DNA from: Candidatus Saccharimonadota bacterium
GTDB lineage: Bacteria; Patescibacteriota; Saccharimonadia; Saccharimonadales; Saccharimonadaceae
DNA length: 64,000 nucleotides
Direction: 5' to 3'
NCBI GenBank assembly: GCA_027492635.1
Contig: JAPUEH010000007.1
Coordinates: forward strand, 186,001-250,000
Part shown: positions 23,836 to 47,823 of the stretch, piece by piece
How the letters are laid out: each line of letters starts with the position of its first letter
Position numbering within the stretch: the stretch's first letter is position 1
Program-made: the position numbers and the translations under genes
Notes under the pieces: model-generated
What the model saw: the letters and a program-made list of their open reading frames with translations, nothing else
Databases searched by the model: none
What the model was told of the DNA's origin: nothing

Positions 23836-23899
23836 GAGTTATCGCTATTGATTCGGCTCGTCCGAATGTGTGCGAGTAGAGGAATCAGAGGTGATTCAT
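23836..23899 (-). promoter_or_regulatory. Structured 5' leader with micro-ORF (copy A)
   Basis: Read on the minus strand, TGT-TATAAT (23910-23915) is followed after 10 nt by ATGAATCACCTCTGA, a five-codon ORF (MNHL-stop). Then come a hairpin GAATCA/TGATTC, the single-stranded-looking CTCTACTCG, and the hairpin TTCGGACGAGCCGAA, before a gap leading to AAGGAG and the exporter start. The order and several blocks match copy B at 37097-37170. Function (translational attenuation, ligand sensing) is inference. Confidence 0.55.
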
Positions 23900-24005
23900 A
23901 GTGTTTTTGATTATAACACAGTCTATCTTTTCATTGTAGCATATTTAGGAAATAATTACAAGTTTTTGTCTAGACGCGCAGGAAAATGAAGCGTATACTG
24001 GTGTG

Positions 24006-37087: not shown

Positions 37088-37096
37088 AAAAATACT

Positions 37097-37170
37097 ATGA
37101 TTCCCTGCTGGTGATTCAAAGGAATCCTCTACACGTGCACGTTCGGACGAGCCGAACCGCTAGCGTTATC
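37097..37170 (+). promoter_or_regulatory. Structured 5' leader with micro-ORF (copy B)
   Basis: TACAAT (37082-37087) is followed after 9 nt by a six-codon ORF (MIPCW-stop, 37097-37114). GATTCC (37099-37104) pairs with GGAATC (37121-37126), then CTCTAC (37127-37132), then the hairpin TTCGGACGAGCCGAA (37142-37156), then TAGCGTTATCG. GAGGAG precedes the Nudix ATG at 37196. Block order and several exact blocks match copy A (23836-23899). No known riboswitch class fits. Confidence 0.55.
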
Positions 37171-39770: not shown

Positions 39771-39914
39771 TAATGCAACAGAGCTAGTCGGTGCACGCAT
39801 CGTCTATAGAGTGTACCGCTAGAGCCATTACTGGGACTGCGGCAAATCGACGTACTTGGTCCCTATGATGCATAAGTGCGGTATAATTTGTCTAAGGATA
39901 ACTATAATACACGT
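39771..39914 (+). other. Intergenic region with hairpins
   Basis: No gene seen. Several GC-rich self-complementary stretches precede TATAAT at 39903-39908, the -10 box of the next gene. A second TATAAT-like box (GTATAAT at 39880) sits 22 nt further up. Confidence 0.4.
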
Positions 39915-42900
39915 ATGACAAAAGCGCCTTCCATTAGTCAACTAGCCAAGTACGGACTTGATTATGTAAGTCTTATTTCGAGTAGCGGCTCAAGAAGCCG
40001 ACCGGTTAAGACTGATCTCATTGATACTGCAAAGCTGCCAGCAGAGAAGCTCGTTTTTGGAGATGATGTTGACAGTGTTTCGCTCAAGTTGGTGACAGCG
40101 CTTGATAGCCAATACGATATGGAGACTCCCGAAGAAGAAAAGAGTGATGAACAAAAGCAGGCAGAACAGCGAGTTCAGCACGATAGAGAGCTTCTGAATA
40201 AACTACAGGAGATCGACACGAAGATCAAAACCGATGAATACACAAAGCGAGTAGTGATTCAAACGGGCTTTGTCTCATTTGAAGCGAAACGATACCTTGA
40301 TGCGGAGTATAGCGATGACTACGAGAAGTACGATGCGCCTTTGTTTCAGATTCCTGTTGCTTCTTTGTACTTTAGGTTCACCTCTGACGGTGTAGATGTC
40401 ACGATTAATATCGCCGATAATTATATCGAAGTAGCGAGTGGTGCACTGAAAAATTATCTGCCGCAACAATATTATGACACAATATTTACATTTATCACTG
40501 ACGCAGAAGCAGACGATAAGACAACTCGTCCTATCGCGAGAGAGTTCGCAGATGACCTCTGGTCGACAATTCGTGTCCAGCTTGAGCGTGTGAACGCTCG
40601 GAACATCTCAGAGGCTCCTCGCTACACGGGAAGTTGCGTTGCGCTTGCTGCTAAAACAAATCACTTCTTGGCAGAAGACCTAAAAGAGATAGCGGCACTT
40701 GAGGACGAGGCGCTTCTTGAAACATCACTCGGTAGCTGGGTGTCTGACGAAGACATGGCGATTGAGCAGACCGTGTCTGATGATGGGAGCACTGAGATAT
40801 TCTTTCCCTTTGATTACGACAAGTATCAATTAAAAGTCTTGGGCATTACTGGCAACAAAGCGGTTATTGTCGAAGGCCCGCCAGGGACTGGTAAATCCCA
40901 GACAATTTCAAACCTTCTTGTCCACTTGGCGGCAACTGGCAAACGTGTCTTGTTTGCAAGCCAAAAAGACCAGGCAATACGCGGCGTAAAAGACAAACTA
41001 AAAACGCTCGACATTCCTTTTCTCTATGGGTATATCCCTGACAAAACATCAAAGCTATATACGGAAGAAGATGAGAAGGATAGCGCTGCCAATACGCTCC
41101 TTGCGCTCAATCGAGAGTTTCAAAAAAGAAAAGTGGGAGATCTGAGACAGCCGCTAGCTTTGCTTTCTCGGTCTGCGAATACTTTTGTGGAAAGCCTCAA
41201 CAATGAGCGCTCTGTGTATACACTGTACGAGGAACGGCGAAGTCTTGGGTATCTGGATGCTATATACCCCTATGAAATTGATAGCGAGTGGTATAGCCAA
41301 GCATGTGCCGTCGAGGATACGATCGCCAGCCTGAAGGCAAGTGTCGCTGAGTATGAGGCTACACACGAAAAACTCATTGAAGCGGCGAGCAAAAAGTTTG
41401 GACATCTCGAGCTTGATTATCCGAGTACGATTGATGCCCTCATAAATATTCAAGACTACTTCAAAGCGAATATGCCCGAAAGGTCGGGATGGATAGGCGG
41501 CAAAGTAAACGAGGTCAAGCTTCGCAGTGCACTAAAAGACTATGGACGTAACTTGCTGCAAGAAATATATGTCGAAGTTGAGAAGGTGCTTTTCTCTGAT
41601 AGCACAAAGTCGGCTCGCTTGCAGCTGCTCGGCAGTCTGTCCGATTACTTTGTGTATGATAGCGAAAGACGGTCGGTTGCGGAGCAACAAGCTATCCTCG
41701 GCGATGTGCTGAAAAGTGTAGAAATGCCCGCGATCACGTATGATCTTTTGAAAGAGATTGTTTTGGGGCATGGAAAAGACAAAGTCTTTCAAGACCTCAT
41801 TCGTTATAACGATATCTCCGAGCAGATAGAAGAAATATCACTCTATTCCGCGAACGAATTTAATCGCGAAATAAAAGATATTCGAAAATTTTATAGAACG
41901 AATGTAGCAAATTATGTGCGTAATCGCATTTTAACGAGGGTGAGCGAGGCAAATGATAGCAAGGGCGTGAGGGCGACACTTGCTCAAGTTGCGCGCAGTC
42001 TCACAAAAAGCAAAAAAGCCAATAAAACATTCGACCGTCTCAAACACAATAGCGAGAACTTTGGTGCAATGTCGAAGGTGCTGCCAATTTGGATGATGAG
42101 TCTCGACGATGTAAGCCGAATTGTGCCGTTGGAGATGAATGCGTTTGATTACGTTATTATCGACGAGGCCTCTCAGTGTAATTTTGCGTATGCGTTTCCT
42201 GCGATGTTTCGTGCCAAACACACCATTTTCTTTGGTGATACCTTGCAGATGCGAGATGACAATATAATGTTCAAGTCCAACGATCAACTAAGTGCCATCG
42301 CCAAGAAACATAAGATTCCGGATGTTTATCAAATCAAGGCAGAGGAAGATACGGTAAAGTCTGTCATGGATATCGCTACTCTGAACGGTTTTAAGACTGC
42401 AACGCTGAAATATCATTATCGCTCTCCCAGAGAATTGATTGGATTTTCGAACGAGTCCTTTTATGAGCCTATTGGTCGAAAATTAGAGGCGGTTAACGAC
42501 AATATCGTTCCATATAAAGATACTGGTCGAGTGCTTTTGACACACATTGTTAAGACGAATAGTGATGAAGAATTATCCGATAAAACAAACCTTGCGGAAA
42601 TACGGAAGATTCAAGAACTGATCACTGAAATAAAAGATGACCCTGTGTTACACAGTAAATCTATCGCTGTGCTGACATTCTTCAACGAACAAGCAGAACT
42701 TCTGCGCGATACGATCAAAGATGAGGATATCAAAGTTTCTATTATTGATGGTATCCAGGGTGACGAGCGTGATATTATCATTTACTCGTTTGTCATAAAA
42801 GACCCGACCGACAAGAGGCGATATATCGCGCTGACGGGCGAAGGTGGCGAGATTCGTAAGGACATTGCGGCGGGGCGTGTTAATGTTGCTTTTAGCCGCG

Positions 42901-43781
42901 CGAAGTTGCAGGTCCATGCAGTTACTTCTCTTGCCCCTGAATTGTGGCCTGAAGGTATTTGGATTAAAAGGTATCTTGAGTATGTTGAGAACAATGGCAC
43001 AGTGATACGTCGTCATGGCAAAGACGAGCAGCAGTTTGACTCATACTTTGAAGAGGAAGTATTTGCTCATCTTGCACAGACGTTGGATGCGAGCGACTAT
43101 ACGCTTACGACGCAGGTCGAGTCTCTTGGCTTCAAGATTGATCTTGTCGTATATCGTAATGGTAAGAAGCTTGCGCTTGAGATGGATGGTCCATCACACT
43201 TTGAGGGTGGTGACGGACAGGTATATGTGAAGGATGATTGGGATAGGCAGTGTGCTTTGGAGACGGCAGGCTGGGACTTTTATCGTGTCTCATATTTTGA
43301 TTGGGTCAATGATCGGGCTGCTGAGCAAAAAGCCCTTGTTGAATATATACATCACTATTTCTCGGACACTAGGCCTAGAAGTAAGTCAGATGTCTTAAAA
43401 GAACTCGAGGGCGAAATGGTCACGCCCGAGGAAGCTCCAAAGGAGATGTATGTTACAGATTTTTCCGCGGAGCATGTTGACCATGTTACGGTAGTGGGGA
43501 CTGCTCCATCGGCACCTGTCTCGAAAACTATCGCTTCGGTAAAGAAGACGTTTAGTGTCGGTAGCCGCGAAGTCAACCAGGATGAATTTAATATCTATCT
43601 TGCATCGCATGTAGGCAGCGCGGTAACCGTGAGGTATCAAACGCCGCGAGCAAATAGTGCTAAGCATTGGCGTACAATTAATTTGGTGAAGTATGATGCA
43701 ACCTATCTTTATACGCATGCGCCGGATGGGCGTGATTATCTGGTAAAGTACCGTCGTGATCGTGTCGTTGAGTTTAAGTAG
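39915..43781 (+). CDS. Large SF1 (DNA2/NAM7-type) helicase with C-terminal PD-(D/E)xK nuclease and tail barrel
   Basis: A 1288-residue protein. Helicase motifs: Walker A GPPGTGKSQT (about residue 320), VIIDEASQ (about 748), GDTLQM, KYHYRSP, GIQGDERDIIIYS and VNVAFSRAK. Residues ~1035-1140 hold a DUF559/Vsr-like nuclease core: YFEEEV, KIDLVVY, ALEMDGPSHF and DWDRQCALETAGWDFYRV. Residues ~1215-1288 form a small beta domain (VTVRYQTPRAN...YRRDRVVEF) resembling a WYL/Sm-like barrel. TATAAT ends 6 nt before the ATG. The combination beside other defence genes suggests phage defence. Confidence 0.85.
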   Translation: MTKAPSISQLAKYGLDYVSLISSSGSRSRPVKTDLIDTAKLPAEKLVFGDDVDSVSLKLVTALDSQYDMETPEEEKSDEQKQAEQRVQHDRELLNKLQEIDTKIKTDEYTKRVVIQTGFVSFEAKRYLDAEYSDDYEKYDAPLFQIPVASLYFRFTSDGVDVTINIADNYIEVASGALKNYLPQQYYDTIFTFITDAEADDKTTRPIAREFADDLWSTIRVQLERVNARNISEAPRYTGSCVALAAKTNHFLAEDLKEIAALEDEALLETSLGSWVSDEDMAIEQTVSDDGSTEIFFPFDYDKYQLKVLGITGNKAVIVEGPPGTGKSQTISNLLVHLAATGKRVLFASQKDQAIRGVKDKLKTLDIPFLYGYIPDKTSKLYTEEDEKDSAANTLLALNREFQKRKVGDLRQPLALLSRSANTFVESLNNERSVYTLYEERRSLGYLDAIYPYEIDSEWYSQACAVEDTIASLKASVAEYEATHEKLIEAASKKFGHLELDYPSTIDALINIQDYFKANMPERSGWIGGKVNEVKLRSALKDYGRNLLQEIYVEVEKVLFSDSTKSARLQLLGSLSDYFVYDSERRSVAEQQAILGDVLKSVEMPAITYDLLKEIVLGHGKDKVFQDLIRYNDISEQIEEISLYSANEFNREIKDIRKFYRTNVANYVRNRILTRVSEANDSKGVRATLAQVARSLTKSKKANKTFDRLKHNSENFGAMSKVLPIWMMSLDDVSRIVPLEMNAFDYVIIDEASQCNFAYAFPAMFRAKHTIFFGDTLQMRDDNIMFKSNDQLSAIAKKHKIPDVYQIKAEEDTVKSVMDIATLNGFKTATLKYHYRSPRELIGFSNESFYEPIGRKLEAVNDNIVPYKDTGRVLLTHIVKTNSDEELSDKTNLAEIRKIQELITEIKDDPVLHSKSIAVLTFFNEQAELLRDTIKDEDIKVSIIDGIQGDERDIIIYSFVIKDPTDKRRYIALTGEGGEIRKDIAAGRVNVAFSRAKLQVHAVTSLAPELWPEGIWIKRYLEYVENNGTVIRRHGKDEQQFDSYFEEEVFAHLAQTLDASDYTLTTQVESLGFKIDLVVYRNGKKLALEMDGPSHFEGGDGQVYVKDDWDRQCALETAGWDFYRVSYFDWVNDRAAEQKALVEYIHHYFSDTRPRSKSDVLKELEGEMVTPEEAPKEMYVTDFSAEHVDHVTVVGTAPSAPVSKTIASVKKTFSVGSREVNQDEFNIYLASHVGSAVTVRYQTPRANSAKHWRTINLVKYDATYLYTHAPDGRDYLVKYRRDRVVEFK

Positions 43782-43803: not shown

Positions 43804-43834
43804 TTGACAATGTTACTTTACCTTGATAAAGTAA
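43804..43834 (+). promoter_or_regulatory. Promoter and palindromic operator of the TrpR-family gene
   Basis: TTGACA (43804-43809), 17-nt spacer, TAAAGT (43827-43832), 6 nt, ATG. TTACTTTA (43813-43820) and TAAAGTAA (43827-43834) form a perfect 8-bp inverted repeat with a 6-nt centre whose right arm is the -10 box. This is an almost textbook autoregulatory operator. Confidence 0.85.
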
Positions 43835-43838
43835 ATGC

Positions 43839-44168
43839 ATGACTAAAAACGCATCGAAAAATCTGAATATAGATATGACGCAACAGTTTATCGAAACATT
43901 GTGTCTTATTGATGATGCAAAAACGATGCAAAAATTTCTCCGCGATGTCATGACGGAGAAAGAAATTATCGAAATCAGCGCACGGCTGGAAGCGGCAAAA
44001 ATGCTCCGCGCTGGTGCGAAATATACCGATATTGTGGCGGCGACGAAACTCAGTTCGCGCACCGTCGCACGGATTAGCGATTGGCTCAAAAACGGTACGG
44101 GCGGCTACGACGCTGCACTGCAAGCAATCGACGCTCATCATGCCCATCTTCCGCCAGCTCGTGCCTAG
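43839..44168 (+). CDS. TrpR/YerC/YecD-family transcriptional regulator
   Basis: A 109-residue all-helical protein: LRDVMTEKEIIEISARLEAAKMLRAGAKYTDIVAATKLSSRTVARISDWLKNGTGGY matches the YerC/YecD branch of Trp repressor homologues, with the helix-turn-helix in its last third (YTDIVAATKLSSRTVARI). The ligand of this branch is generally unknown. The message is leaderless and the operator at 43813-43834 sits over its promoter. Confidence 0.92.
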   Translation: MTKNASKNLNIDMTQQFIETLCLIDDAKTMQKFLRDVMTEKEIIEISARLEAAKMLRAGAKYTDIVAATKLSSRTVARISDWLKNGTGGYDAALQAIDAHHAHLPPARA

Positions 44169-44186
44169 GGTTTTCGCTATATAAAT

Positions 44187-44213
44187 AAAACGCCAGCACG
44201 ACGCTGGCGTTTT
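44187..44213 (+). terminator. Intrinsic terminator
   Basis: AAAACGCCAGC (44187-44197) pairs with GCTGGCGTTTT (44203-44213). It separates the regulator from the HisG-like gene, which has its own TATAAT at 44215-44220. Confidence 0.88.
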
Positions 44214-44246
44214 GTATAATCATTAATTTTATATATGGAGAGAACA

Positions 44247-44814
44247 ATGGCAGAGCAAAATTATATTGCAAAAGGCAACAAAGAGCAGGTGGCAAACATA
44301 CTTGGGATTGACGCCGAGACGGCATTTCCGGGGAGGTGTCTTCACTTACGAGCAAGGTGGTCAAGCATATTCATTACGCCGCAGCAATAGGGCAATACAG
44401 CTAGCACTCGAAGGTGGAGAATCAAGCCTAGCGATCATCGGGGAAGATGCAGCGATAGAGGCTGGAGTTGAAGGAGAGACGCTAGAGCCAATTAAGAAAG
44501 ACGGACAGCCACTCAGATTTGCATTGCTTGGGCGCGTGGGTGTGAATCTCGCATCGCTACAATCTCAAGAACTGATAATTGCAACTTCATATCCAGTTAT
44601 GGCGCGTCGACTCATGACAGAATTGGCCCTGAGCGGTACATTGCTAAAGGTTGACGGCTGTGTAGAGGCTGAACTTACAGGCGACACTCCTGCGGCAGAT
44701 GTAGCTATTGAGCTTGTGCAATCTGGTGCTTCGGTTCGAGAAAATAATTTGGCTGTGCTCGCAGATGATTTATATTTACTTAATTTAGTCAAAATAGGAG
44801 AGGGAAGAATATGA
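44247..44814 (+). pseudogene. HisG-like (ATP phosphoribosyltransferase-type) protein, frameshifted
   Basis: ATG 44247 with GGAGAG upstream opens a frame (MAEQNYIAKGNKEQVANILG...) that runs into a +1 frame at a GGGG run near 44335. With one G removed the frames join as ...AETAFPG-GVFTYEQGG... and give a ~188-residue protein. It holds HisG-type segments: LAIIGEDAAIEAG (D-x-G-I-x-G-x-D), LIIATSYP (the phosphoribosyl-binding IATxYP strand), VDGCVEAE (GsvE), and ADVAIELVQSGASVRENNL (the ADxIVDxVxTGxTLxxN segment). No other histidine genes are here. Either a sequencing error, a decayed gene, or programmed shifting. Confidence 0.65.
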
Positions 44815-45353
44815 GAAAATTTCAAATCGGCGTCATGGGTTCGGCTGCAGACCTCAACTATGCCAAAGAAGTAGAAAATGCAGCGTATGAGATCGGTAAG
44901 CTAGTAGCAGAAAACAGTGGCATCTTGCTTTTCGGTGCAGAAAAAGACAGTGATTCGCTTTCGACTGCTGCATGTCGCGGCGCCAAAGACGCTGGCGGAC
45001 TGACGGTCGGTATTACCTATGGCAAGGGCAAAGATGTCTGGCAGGAAGATGCCGACATTATCATCCCGTGCGGACTAGAGCGTGGAGGGGGTCGCGAAAC
45101 CGTACTTGTCACGGGCTGTGACGCGGTCATTGCTATTAGCGGCGGCTCTGGCACTCTGACTGAGCTTGCTATTGCCTACCAGGCGGACATCCCAACGATA
45201 GCACTAAAAGGCTACGGCGGATGGGCTGACAGGTTGGCCGATGAATATATCGATGTGCGTGAGCGCCGACTGACTCGGGGCGCGAGCACACCGAGAGAGG
45301 CGATAGAGCTGGCATTTCGTGAAGCAGCTACATACAGGGAAAAATATGCGTAG
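44811..45353 (+). CDS. SLOG-domain protein, TIGR00725 family
   Basis: A 180-residue Rossmann-like protein: GVMGSA at the start, LLFGAEKDSDSLSTAACRGAKDAGG, and AVIAISGGSGTLTELAIAYQADIPTIAL, the SLOG/LOG-type nucleotide pocket (GGGSGTLxE). Related LOG enzymes cleave nucleotide monophosphates; TIGR00725 members are uncharacterised. It overlaps the HisG-like gene by ATGA, so translation of the HisG-like frame to its end is needed for coupling. Confidence 0.88.
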   Translation: MRKFQIGVMGSAADLNYAKEVENAAYEIGKLVAENSGILLFGAEKDSDSLSTAACRGAKDAGGLTVGITYGKGKDVWQEDADIIIPCGLERGGGRETVLVTGCDAVIAISGGSGTLTELAIAYQADIPTIALKGYGGWADRLADEYIDVRERRLTRGASTPREAIELAFREAATYREKYA

Positions 45354-45491: not shown

Positions 45492-45704
45492 CTATTTTCG
45501 ATATTCGAGTATGTCGCTTGGCTGGCAATCAAGCGCCTCGCAAATAGCCTCGAGCGCCGATAGGCGCACAGCCTTGGCTTTGCCGTTTTTGAGGATTGAG
45601 AGATTTGCCATGGTGATGCCGACACGCTCGGACAGTTTGGTGACGCTCATTTTTCGTTTGGCGAGCATGACGTCGATGTTGATAGGAGATGTTTTCTTGG
45701 GCAT
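45492..45704 (-). CDS. Small HTH (XRE/Cro-type) regulator
   Basis: A 70-residue helix-turn-helix protein: MLAKRKMSVTKLSERVGITMANLSILKNGKAKAVRLSALEAICEALDCQPSDIL, the YozG/HTH_26-type domain. It lies downstream of the nuclease/methyltransferase pair on the same strand with a palindrome (45714-45754) just before it. It resembles restriction-system controller proteins in size and position, which is inference. Confidence 0.9.
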   Translation of the reverse strand: MPKKTSPINIDVMLAKRKMSVTKLSERVGITMANLSILKNGKAKAVRLSALEAICEALDCQPSDILEYRK

Positions 45705-45713
45705 GGGTCTATC

Positions 45714-45754
45714 ATCGAGATATATTTATCGTTTTAAAATAAATATATCTCGAT
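45714..45754. repeat. 16-bp perfect inverted repeat (operator and/or terminator)
   Basis: ATCGAGATATATTTAT (45714-45729) and ATAAATATATCTCGAT (45739-45754) with a 9-nt centre. It begins 10 bp upstream of the HTH start and 12 bp beyond the DUF262-HNH stop. As DNA it suits an operator of the HTH protein; as RNA it forms an AT-rich hairpin without a good T tract. Confidence 0.8.
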
Positions 45755-45765
45755 AAACATATATT

Positions 45766-46848
45766 TTAACCTTTACCCTTCCTCCGATTATCCTCTCGGC
45801 ATAACATCTGGCAATTCTCAGCTGTCGTATGCCCACCCTCAACCCACGGTGTAATATGATCCGCTTCCATCTCGCGTAGCTCGAAATGCTTCCCGCACGC
45901 CACGCACACACCAGCCTGTCGCTCATACGCCTCGCGCTTCATATTGTCGGTAAAGGTGCGGATCGATAGGTATTTCTCCTCGCGCGTCAGCACGTATTCG
46001 TAGATGCCGGGCTTTTTCGTCACATCCTCGTCCATCATCAGGCGCACGATCTCATCCTCTAGCGCATCAGTATCAAAAGACCCATCTTTGTACGCGTTAT
46101 ACAACTTGCCCCAGTCCACGCCCTTCATCTCGCGGCGATACTGCGGAAACGTCAGCGTCACCCAGTTGATCACGCTCTGAAAATACATCCACAGCTCATT
46201 GGCATTCTGCGCGTGCTGATTCTCCGACATATACTGCTCGATATTACCGCCCGAAATCCATTTGATCGCCGTCTCTAGATAGTCTTGGCGGATTGGTGAA
46301 CCATTCACATAGTCTTTCGCCAAGTTGTACGCCGCGCCGTTACTGTGAGAGAAATATCGCTTCGCATCCGTCAGCCACGTGCCGGTATAAATCGCATTGC
46401 GCAGTTCTTGGTCGGTTAGCTTTTCACCGGCGATGTTGATCGTCTTGAACCATTCCAGCTTCTCGCGGTCGTCGCCCTCGCAGAAATACACCATCAGTTT
46501 GTAGTCGAGAATCTGCTCTTGCTCCTCGTGCATCAGGTTGTGAAAATACTGATACTCCACGCTAAAATCACCCGCCACATACTGGCACAAACTGATCGTC
46601 CGCTGCTGCCCGTCGAGTACTTCGTATGTGTCGTCTTCGTTCACCGCCCAGTACATCACGTTCAGCGGAAAATCCTTTCGCACTGTATCGATTACCGCGT
46701 CGCGCTGCGCATCTTTGTAGATAAACTCACGCTGATATTTCGGGCGGATGTTCAGCTTGCCATCATAGCCAATCACGCCTTCTTCTTCGTTGTTCACAAA
46801 ATTCTGCGCCACGTCGCGAACAGGGATTTCTTTGAGTTGGATTTTCAT
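45766..46848 (-). CDS. DUF262-HNH endonuclease
   Basis: A 360-residue protein. The N-terminal part is DUF262 (IRPKYQREFIYKDAQRDAVIDTV, then YEVLDGQQRTISLCQY, the DGQQR motif). The C-terminus is an HNH nuclease (CVACGKHFELREMEADHITPWVEGGHTTAENCQMLC) with the Cys pairs and DHITPW. DUF262-HNH proteins act as restriction or phage-DNA nucleases (GmrSD-like). It starts in an ATGA overlap with the EcoRI-family methyltransferase gene, so the two are one restriction-modification-like unit. Confidence 0.9.
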   Translation of the reverse strand: MKIQLKEIPVRDVAQNFVNNEEEGVIGYDGKLNIRPKYQREFIYKDAQRDAVIDTVRKDFPLNVMYWAVNEDDTYEVLDGQQRTISLCQYVAGDFSVEYQYFHNLMHEEQEQILDYKLMVYFCEGDDREKLEWFKTINIAGEKLTDQELRNAIYTGTWLTDAKRYFSHSNGAAYNLAKDYVNGSPIRQDYLETAIKWISGGNIEQYMSENQHAQNANELWMYFQSVINWVTLTFPQYRREMKGVDWGKLYNAYKDGSFDTDALEDEIVRLMMDEDVTKKPGIYEYVLTREEKYLSIRTFTDNMKREAYERQAGVCVACGKHFELREMEADHITPWVEGGHTTAENCQMLCREDNRRKGKG

Positions 46849-47777
46849 GATTGCTGCCTCCTTTTGATAAATATTCTGCTATACATCCTTTTGCCGTTAA
46901 TGTAGCCACGACCTTTTTCAATATTCAAATCGTACTCATTGCCAAGAATTTCGAATTGCTCAGGATTGTAGCTATCTAAAAAGGTAATAGGGACACCCAT
47001 TGTGCCATCGTAATCAACTGGAATATTGGCAACTTTTGAAACTTCGATTGCGTCGTAATTGTCATACTTCGGATATTCATCAGGATTGTATTGTTTGAAT
47101 AATGTCAGTTCTTCGTGGCGTTTCGATGTATCAAGATTTGTAAACCAAGAGATATTTCGGAACTTCACTAGTCCCGTCTTTTCGTCGTAGACGCCACTCG
47201 CAAATTCTTTAATGTGCGGAGTTTTGAAATATGCATTACCACCAGCAAATCCGTAACCAAGCCAGAGCGTATTTTGTTTGATTAGTTGAAAAATCTCTTT
47301 ATAGGTTGCGGCATTTTTACTGCCAATAATCAAAAACTTTTTGTCGTGCTCCATGAGCTGCGCCACGTATTCACGAAACAGCGAAAACGGAGGATTCGTC
47401 ACCACGACATCTGCTTCTTTCAAAATCTCGATACATTCATCACTACGAAAATCACCATTCTGCTTCAGTGGCGTCTTGACGATGTCATCGTCATTCACTG
47501 TGCCGTCTTCGTTCATATCACCAGTCAGTTCCAGCTTGTATGTCGATTTCTCACGATCGAAATGTGTGGCGACAAGCTTCTTTAGCCCGAGGCGCGTGAA
47601 GTTCAACGCAAAATACCGCCAAAAGTTACTCTCCACTGGATCATCACAATTCAGGAAAATAACTTTGCCTTTAAACTGCTCCCGATACCGCGAACACTCC
47701 CGCTCGATATCCCCAATCTGCGTATAAAATTCGTCTAGTTTCTGCTGTTTTGCTACGTGTAAGTTCTTTTGAGCCAT
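46845..47777 (-). CDS. EcoRI-family adenine-specific DNA methyltransferase
   Basis: A 310-residue N6-adenine methyltransferase: KLDEFYTQ (the EFYT motif), VIFLNCDDPVESNFW (SAM-related), and VTNPPFSLFREYV (NPPF, residues ~128-131), with the downstream GGNAYFKTP and ISWFTNLD segments of the EcoRI methylase family. The ATG at 47777 is chosen by family N-terminus; an in-frame GTG at 47807 is the longer alternative. It presumably protects host DNA from the coupled DUF262-HNH protein. Confidence 0.9.
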   Translation of the reverse strand: MAQKNLHVAKQQKLDEFYTQIGDIERECSRYREQFKGKVIFLNCDDPVESNFWRYFALNFTRLGLKKLVATHFDREKSTYKLELTGDMNEDGTVNDDDIVKTPLKQNGDFRSDECIEILKEADVVVTNPPFSLFREYVAQLMEHDKKFLIIGSKNAATYKEIFQLIKQNTLWLGYGFAGGNAYFKTPHIKEFASGVYDEKTGLVKFRNISWFTNLDTSKRHEELTLFKQYNPDEYPKYDNYDAIEVSKVANIPVDYDGTMGVPITFLDSYNPEQFEILGNEYDLNIEKGRGYINGKRMYSRIFIKRRQQS

Positions 47778-47823
47778 ATGACTTTGCGATGCGTCAATAA
47801 TATTCACGCAGTAATCACGGCAT

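Follow-up and report, generated by a model that had tools for sequence, protein, structure and literature searches.

The locus described here raises the question of how a hisG gene that is split over two reading frames could be expressed, and for what purpose its product is kept. HisG is the first enzyme of histidine synthesis. We analyzed a stretch of 64,000 nucleotides (the window), which is part of contig C7 in a genome of 1.01 Mb with 96% completeness, taken here as Saccharibacteria. A first-pass annotation of this DNA had described an autoregulated TrpR-family regulator, a HisG-like gene and a SLOG gene. Profile searches indeed matched the three genes to PF01371, PF01634 and PF18306, respectively, and confirmed that they are real. 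The features considered below all lie on the forward (+) strand:

43804..43832, + strand: predicted sigma-70-like promoter of hisR/yerC (TTGACA-17-TAAAGT, from the consensus match alone)
43813..43834, + strand: predicted HisR operator TTACTTTAccttgaTAAAGTAA, overlapping the TAAAGT -10 box
43839..44168, + strand: hisR (yerC/TrpR family) repressor gene, from profile matches; its last codons (...AHHAHLPPARA, then stop) would double as a histidine leader peptide
44134..44213, + strand: predicted transcription attenuator, with His codons CAT CAT GCC CAT, anti-terminator copy CGCCAGC and terminator ACGCCAGCACGACGCTGGCGTTTT
44247..44390, + strand: 0-frame hisG ORF, N-terminal part (MAEQNYIAKGNKEQVANILGIDAETAFPGRCL); unshifted, it yields a 47-aa dead-end peptide with the TAG stop at 44388-44390
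44330..44345, + strand: +1 frameshift site, predicted to be programmed (GGGGAGG-TGT-CTT-CAC)
44344..44814, + strand: +1-frame HisG body with the ATP phosphoribosyltransferase domain, read from ACT 44344 onward
44811..45353, + strand: SLOG gene (LDcluster4, TIGR00725-like), ATGA-coupled to hisG

The two-frame hisG gene

The HisG domain annotated at first is sound, as the gene scored 50 bits against PF01634 (cut-off 25.5), but the gene does not lie in a single frame: its N-terminus is encoded in the 0 frame and its body in the +1 frame, a split that the first-pass annotation overlooked. The 0-frame ORF has a ribosome-binding site and an ATG at 44247 (GGAGAGAACAATG) and encodes a HisG-like N-terminus (...IAKGNKEQVANILG...), and the body stands in its own frame without a proper start codon. 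At the junction, a Shine-Dalgarno (SD)-like GGGGAGG (44330-44336) is followed by a TGT spacer, the P-site codon CTT (44340-44342) and the A-site His codon CAC (44343-44345). From this layout, we infer that ribosomes shift by +1 at the junction. The window HisG is short and divergent, with a branch length of 2.0 in the tree, and the TIGR00070 cut-off of 75.75 was missed both by the HisG-like gene (42.7 bits) and by the trans-frame product (42.5 bits), whose match begins past the junction. On these profile matches, the product is classed as a HisG homologue to which the equivalog model TIGR00070 does not grant enzyme function. The downstream SLOG gene overlaps hisG by ATGA at 44811-44814, the coupling proposed before; it passed PF18306 (103.2 bits, cut-off 26.3) and scored below the cut-off of TIGR00725 (83 against 106.9 bits).

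Such a break could also reflect an assembly error or a pseudogene, that is, a random 1-base indel in hisG within an operon that decays along with the other histidine genes. Indeed, HisA/HisF and HisD were not found in a search of the 1.01-Mb genome, and the shortness and divergence of the window HisG likewise agree with decay. We gathered hisG genes across the class and order, and 11 of them were frameshifted, namely those of G000 (the window), G051, G416, G049, G040, G240, G390, G322, G154, G162 and G374. The break is identical in all 11, which belong to seven families of one order and have bodies 19-29% identical to that of the window, and this recurrence of the same place and site in 11 genomes speaks against a random indel. 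Both frames are open, and the dN/dS values are well under 1: 0.21, 0.28 and 0.46 for the 0-frame part in three pairs, and 0.20 and 0.22 for the +1 body in two pairs, the third pair being saturated (pN/pS 0.29). Both hisG parts are under purifying selection, and the conserved HisG columns are retained in the frameshifted genes. We therefore consider a pseudogene or an assembly error very improbable, and some broken-looking hisG genes in Saccharibacteria would not be broken.

The junction is conserved in 11 of 11 frameshifted genes as an SD-like sequence followed by NNN-(C/G)TT-CA(C/T), in which the A-site codon encodes histidine. Five genes carry AGG TGT CTT CAC and two carry AAG GAG TGT CTT CAC, while AGG TGT CTT CAT, AGA TCA CTT CAT, AGG TCG GTT CAT and AGG TCA GTT CAT occur in one gene each. 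The SD-like sequence ends 2 or 3 bases 5' of the slip codon in 10 of the 11; the gene of G154 has a weak SD (GGA, with a 6-nt spacer), and two of the 11 use GTT, a poorer slip codon than CTT. In each gene, the overlap of both open frames contains exactly one His codon, which is at the site. The exchange of CAC and CAT leaves the 0 frame as His, and is thus silent there, and replaces Thr with Ile in the +1 frame. A C after NTT aids the slip on its own, so that only the second and third letters of the A-site codon argue for histidine. In G322 (L040), the cassette (RRCLHLG, then stop) is found in a leader ahead of the HisG N-terminus and not inside it, as if moved.

When a single +1 step was placed at CTT or GTT, the trans-frame products of most members were gapless at the junction against in-frame homologues, and trans-frame proteins aligned through it with the Thermus HisG 1ve4. 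Furthermore, P0002, P0003 and P0004 gave single TIGR00070 matches that cross the junction, from profile position 3-5 to 171-180. These alignments bear on internal initiation, by which the SD-like sequence would start a separate +1-frame HisG body and the 0-frame ORF would be a leader peptide. GGAGG would serve well as a ribosome-binding site; however, no shared ATG, GTG or TTG was found just downstream of it in the +1 frame among the frameshifted hisG genes, and the 0-frame part is the beginning of HisG, is under purifying selection and aligns to HisG profiles. Since a shared start codon after the SD is missing, internal initiation is, in our judgement, extremely unlikely.

The pattern AGGTGTCTTCAY was found once in the 1.01-Mb genome, at hisG. 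Additional matches to it in G051, G240 and G322 were rejected as chance, as no fitting two-frame gene is present there. A pattern scan of about 85,000 genomes gave 18 matches, four of them in Saccharibacteria hisG, and the remaining matches, in unrelated organisms, are estimated to be at chance level. We also checked 29 other in-frame hisG genes, of which 26 came from a sample of the whole phylum and three from new relatives, and none has an in-phase SD with NTT-CAY. Among 16 in-frame Saccharibacteria hisG genes, three have an in-phase NTT-CAY, and one of these has an SD-like triplet, downstream of the homologous position. Comparison of the G051 and G416 DNA revealed 29 of 30 identical bases directly before the slip, and 5-11 of 15 in other 15-base blocks. 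The tree, whose branches are long, places the 11 genes in one clade or two, so that they do not represent 11 separate inventions; by this phylogeny, the frameshift is best described as an old trait kept through deep divergence.

Predicted histidine-type control upstream of hisG

We then considered the regulator, which scored 53 bits against PF01371 and 51.9 bits against TIGR02531 (YerC/YecD), above the curated cut-off of 42.2. Its closest PDB match is 3g1c, an E. eligens protein named HisR in PMC9413887. HisR/YerC is a TrpR-family histidine repressor of Gram-positive bacteria, which is autoregulated and controls his genes through the operator consensus cacTTTAnnnnnnTAAAgtg (PMC9413887). In the window, the perfect palindrome TTACTTTA-N6-TAAAGTAA at 43813-43834 overlaps the TAAAGT -10 box, and a window scan allowing up to three mismatches gave one match against 0.21 expected. 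The 20-bp palindrome tacTTTAccttgaTAAAgta inside it, upstream of hisR, fits the published consensus, and comparable operator-like sites lie 5' of yerC in L071 (CCACTTTAgtttggTAAAGTGG) and L007 (CACTTTActttgaTAAAGTA). The first-pass annotation was thus right that a perfect operator covers the -10 box of the regulator's own promoter and that the TrpR-family gene is autoregulated. It had left the ligand open and knew no described system; the regulator instead corresponds to the described repressor HisR/YerC, with matching operator consensus (PMC9413887). As the YerC/YecD model is passed and the site TTACTTTAccttgaTAAAGTAA fits the HisR consensus, the ligand is probably histidine. The locus shares the TrpR-family regulator, operator consensus, autoregulation and his genes with the described HisR regulon (PMC9413887), in which Saccharibacteria do not appear, but differs in that the hisR tail would double as an attenuator leader and the pathway is truncated. 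Within 43804-43841, the predicted start of transcription falls approximately at the hisR ATG, so that hisR may be transcribed as a leaderless mRNA.

Between the regulator and hisG lies a terminator-like hairpin, which was also overlooked at first. The window holds a His-rich leader ORF, a predicted terminator and a predicted competing anti-terminator: the anti-terminator copy CGCCAGC starts 4 nt past the last His codon and, in the folding of segment 44128-44220, can pair with the 3' arm and replace the terminator. The HHAH tail of HisR and the terminator would thus form a histidine attenuator before hisG. Most of the 18 loci examined have a similar layout 5' of hisG or hisI. Short leaders precede frameshifted and in-frame hisG alike (e.g. 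MNYVRTNQHHLHLLPELIG, MIYLTNQHHIHILPELIG and MCVITNLHHLHILPERLG, each ending at a stop), with a terminator-like hairpin after each. At loci with hisR upstream, the HisR C-terminus appears to act as the leader, ending before the stop in AHHAHLPPARA in the window, NAHHAHIPPDLSR in G444, HAHHGHIPPDRAGQ in G239 and HHSHLSPARAE in G081. In this survey, the leader of G240 was interrupted by the contig end, and G040 had no leader in the DNA stretch examined.

As in known his leader-peptide attenuation, a leader rich in His codons stands ahead of a terminator; the present layout differs in being compact, as the copy of the terminator 5' arm begins some 4 nt past the final His codon in most leaders, and in that several loci have the end of hisR as their leader. 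Contig C23 of the same genome carries a second hisG, preceded by a T-box-like leader whose short stem-I loop contains CAC. The Rfam T-box scores, all under the gathering threshold, were weak (E 0.02 for the C23 hisG, and 7.5e-5 and 0.014 for two relatives), and a T-box there is our inference. Taken together, the leaders, attenuators, HisR and the T-box-like leader point to histidine as the signal. In several genomes (L003, L004, L006, L069 and others), the hisG leader is directly preceded by a tRNA gene; an rsmD-like gene is found farther upstream in some genomes and hisS after hisG in others, making up a syntenic histidine locus.

A candidate histidine-starvation switch

We consider it likely that hisR-hisG-SLOG is an operon that responds to histidine starvation and in which three histidine sensors are stacked, including a hungry-codon +1 frameshift switch; this judgement covers the regulation and excludes the use of the HisG and SLOG products. 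In the first sensor, histidine-bound HisR would occupy the -10 box and block transcription. In the second, the His codons in the hisR tail and the terminator would end transcription before hisG unless a ribosome stalls for want of His-tRNA. In the third, the ribosome would stand at CTT with the His codon CAC in the A site, while the internal SD-like sequence upstream strains the mRNA. With plentiful His-tRNA, CAC would be decoded and translation would stop 15 codons later; with scarce His-tRNA, the peptidyl-tRNA would slip from CUU to UUC (+1) to yield full HisG, and translation of full HisG would lead into that of SLOG via the ATGA overlap. The ribosomes would thus probably make the HisG enzyme only when histidine is short.

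This scheme resembles the RF2 (prfB) cassette, in which an internal SD and a P-site CUU that slips by +1 follow each other in a short 0-frame ORF, and a slow A-site step acts as the sensor (PMC5009743). As in prfB, the hisG cassette has the internal SD just before CUU, the gene body in the +1 frame and the short 0-frame ORF (PMC5009743). It differs, however, in that the A site holds CAC/CAU (His) in 11 of 11 genes, not UGA, and the product is HisG, not RF2; the sensed quantity would be His-tRNA instead of RF2, and GUU variants exist. By analogy, the hisG cassette would work like the RF2 frameshift, and it falls outside the RF2 family since the defining stop codon is absent. RF2-type sites are themselves rare in the relatives, occurring in 3 of 61 as pattern matches alone, so that no internal control of the mechanism is at hand. 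With the Ty1 CUU_AGG_C shift and laboratory hungry-codon frameshifting, the cassette shares a slipping P-site CUU and a sense codon awaiting a scarce tRNA (PMC5009743), but here the gene is chromosomal and the codon is that of the pathway's own end product.

A shift that does not respond to histidine would likewise conserve both frames and the site: a fixed fraction of ribosomes would then set a low level of HisG, CTT-C with the SD being slippery by itself, and the His codon would be incidental or merely slow. Nevertheless, a complete His codon is kept in 11 of 11 genes although the slip needs only its first C, and histidine-type control by HisR and the attenuator lies upstream of the same genes. 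Such a constitutive frameshift is improbable in our assessment, and on the same evidence the dependence of the slip on His-tRNA is the reading that we prefer.

With somewhat less assurance, we favor the view that the junction is a natural amino-acid-sensing programmed frameshift, in which an RF2-like cassette in the first gene of the pathway holds the end-product codon at its A site. It would have been retained by seven families of a single order, in genomes that have lost most of the pathway, and its product would have a role in histidine starvation other than making histidine. Laboratory work on frameshifting induced by starvation goes back decades. A 2016 review, on starvation-specific trans-frame proteins in nature, stated that 'no examples are known' (PMC5009743), and the available text of later open-licence papers reported none. 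Within the open-licence literature, no paper joined Saccharibacteria, frameshifting and hisG, and hisG with ribosomal frameshifting led only to papers unrelated by title. If true, this would be a natural case of such a protein with a clear sensor codon; the minimal cassette would be transferable to laboratory E. coli, and the pattern offers a search template for the same cassette with other codons.

Histidine genes and the role of the HisG product

Finally, we examined the other histidine genes. A complete pathway elsewhere in the genome, which the first-pass annotation had named as refuting its view, was not found, although contig C23 carries a second, long in-frame HisG, HisE and HisI. As HisA/HisF and HisD were not found, the suggestion that the module does not serve ordinary histidine synthesis survives. 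In the other frameshift genomes tested, HisI, HisD and, over the family cut-off, HisA/F were not found (for G416, the test covered HisD alone). Fuller sets occur in some in-frame relatives, such as G150 and G221 with HisA/F, and G444 with hisR-hisIE-hisG-hisD-hisS. Reduced Saccharibacteria genomes would retain a HisG under heavy histidine regulation without the rest of the pathway. At L015 (C23, 12737-17140), a second SLOG gene is divergent from hisI, after which come the long hisG, then hisE and a gene for an M15 peptidase; this locus is another partial histidine module of the window's genome and lacks HisA/F. An M15-type peptidase follows both the C23 hisG-hisE and the frameshift hisG of G322, with 42% identity.

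The pairing of HisG-type and SLOG genes, previously suggested, was borne out by co-occurrence: the window SLOG shares 82% identity with the gene that follows hisG-hisE in G377 and 72% with the one that follows hisI in G161. Since SLOG genes this similar stand beside his genes in both genomes, we regard the link between SLOG and the histidine pathway as real within the family, judged by neighborhood. No paper joining SLOG and HisG was found in the open-licence literature. We think that HisG would make phosphoribosyl-ATP as part of a pathway truncated to HisG, HisE and HisI, with no HisA/F, and we propose that HisG made under histidine starvation would yield phosphoribosyl-ATP with a fate other than histidine. 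Only tentatively do we suggest that the SLOG protein acts on or senses a nucleotide product.

A related alternative on the purpose, which is compatible with the frameshift switch, is that HisG, HisE, HisI and SLOG form a nucleotide signalling or modifying system instead of a biosynthetic remnant. Phosphoribosyl-ATP or -AMP would then be the signal of histidine starvation, possibly read or cleaved by SLOG as a sensor or phosphoribohydrolase. The presence of SLOG beside hisG, hisE or hisI in three genomes (72-82% identical), the lack of HisI (except in G000), HisA/F and HisD in the tested frameshift genomes, and the relationship of SLOG with the structures of LOG phosphoribohydrolase and MoCo carrier proteins favor this idea, whereas what comes after most frameshift hisG genes is hisS, a fused HisE domain or an M15 peptidase, and not SLOG. 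On balance, we hold such a system to be possible but rather doubtful.

As to the surroundings, the MDR-NUDIX RNA of Rfam (RF02918) was matched over the gathering score at two places in the window, 23842-23902 (-) and 37094-37166 (+). From their translations alone, the neighbors at 39876-43781 and 45492-47807 resemble a defence/restriction island, and include a large helicase-nuclease-like gene, a small HTH gene, a DUF262/HNH-like gene and a methyltransferase-like gene.
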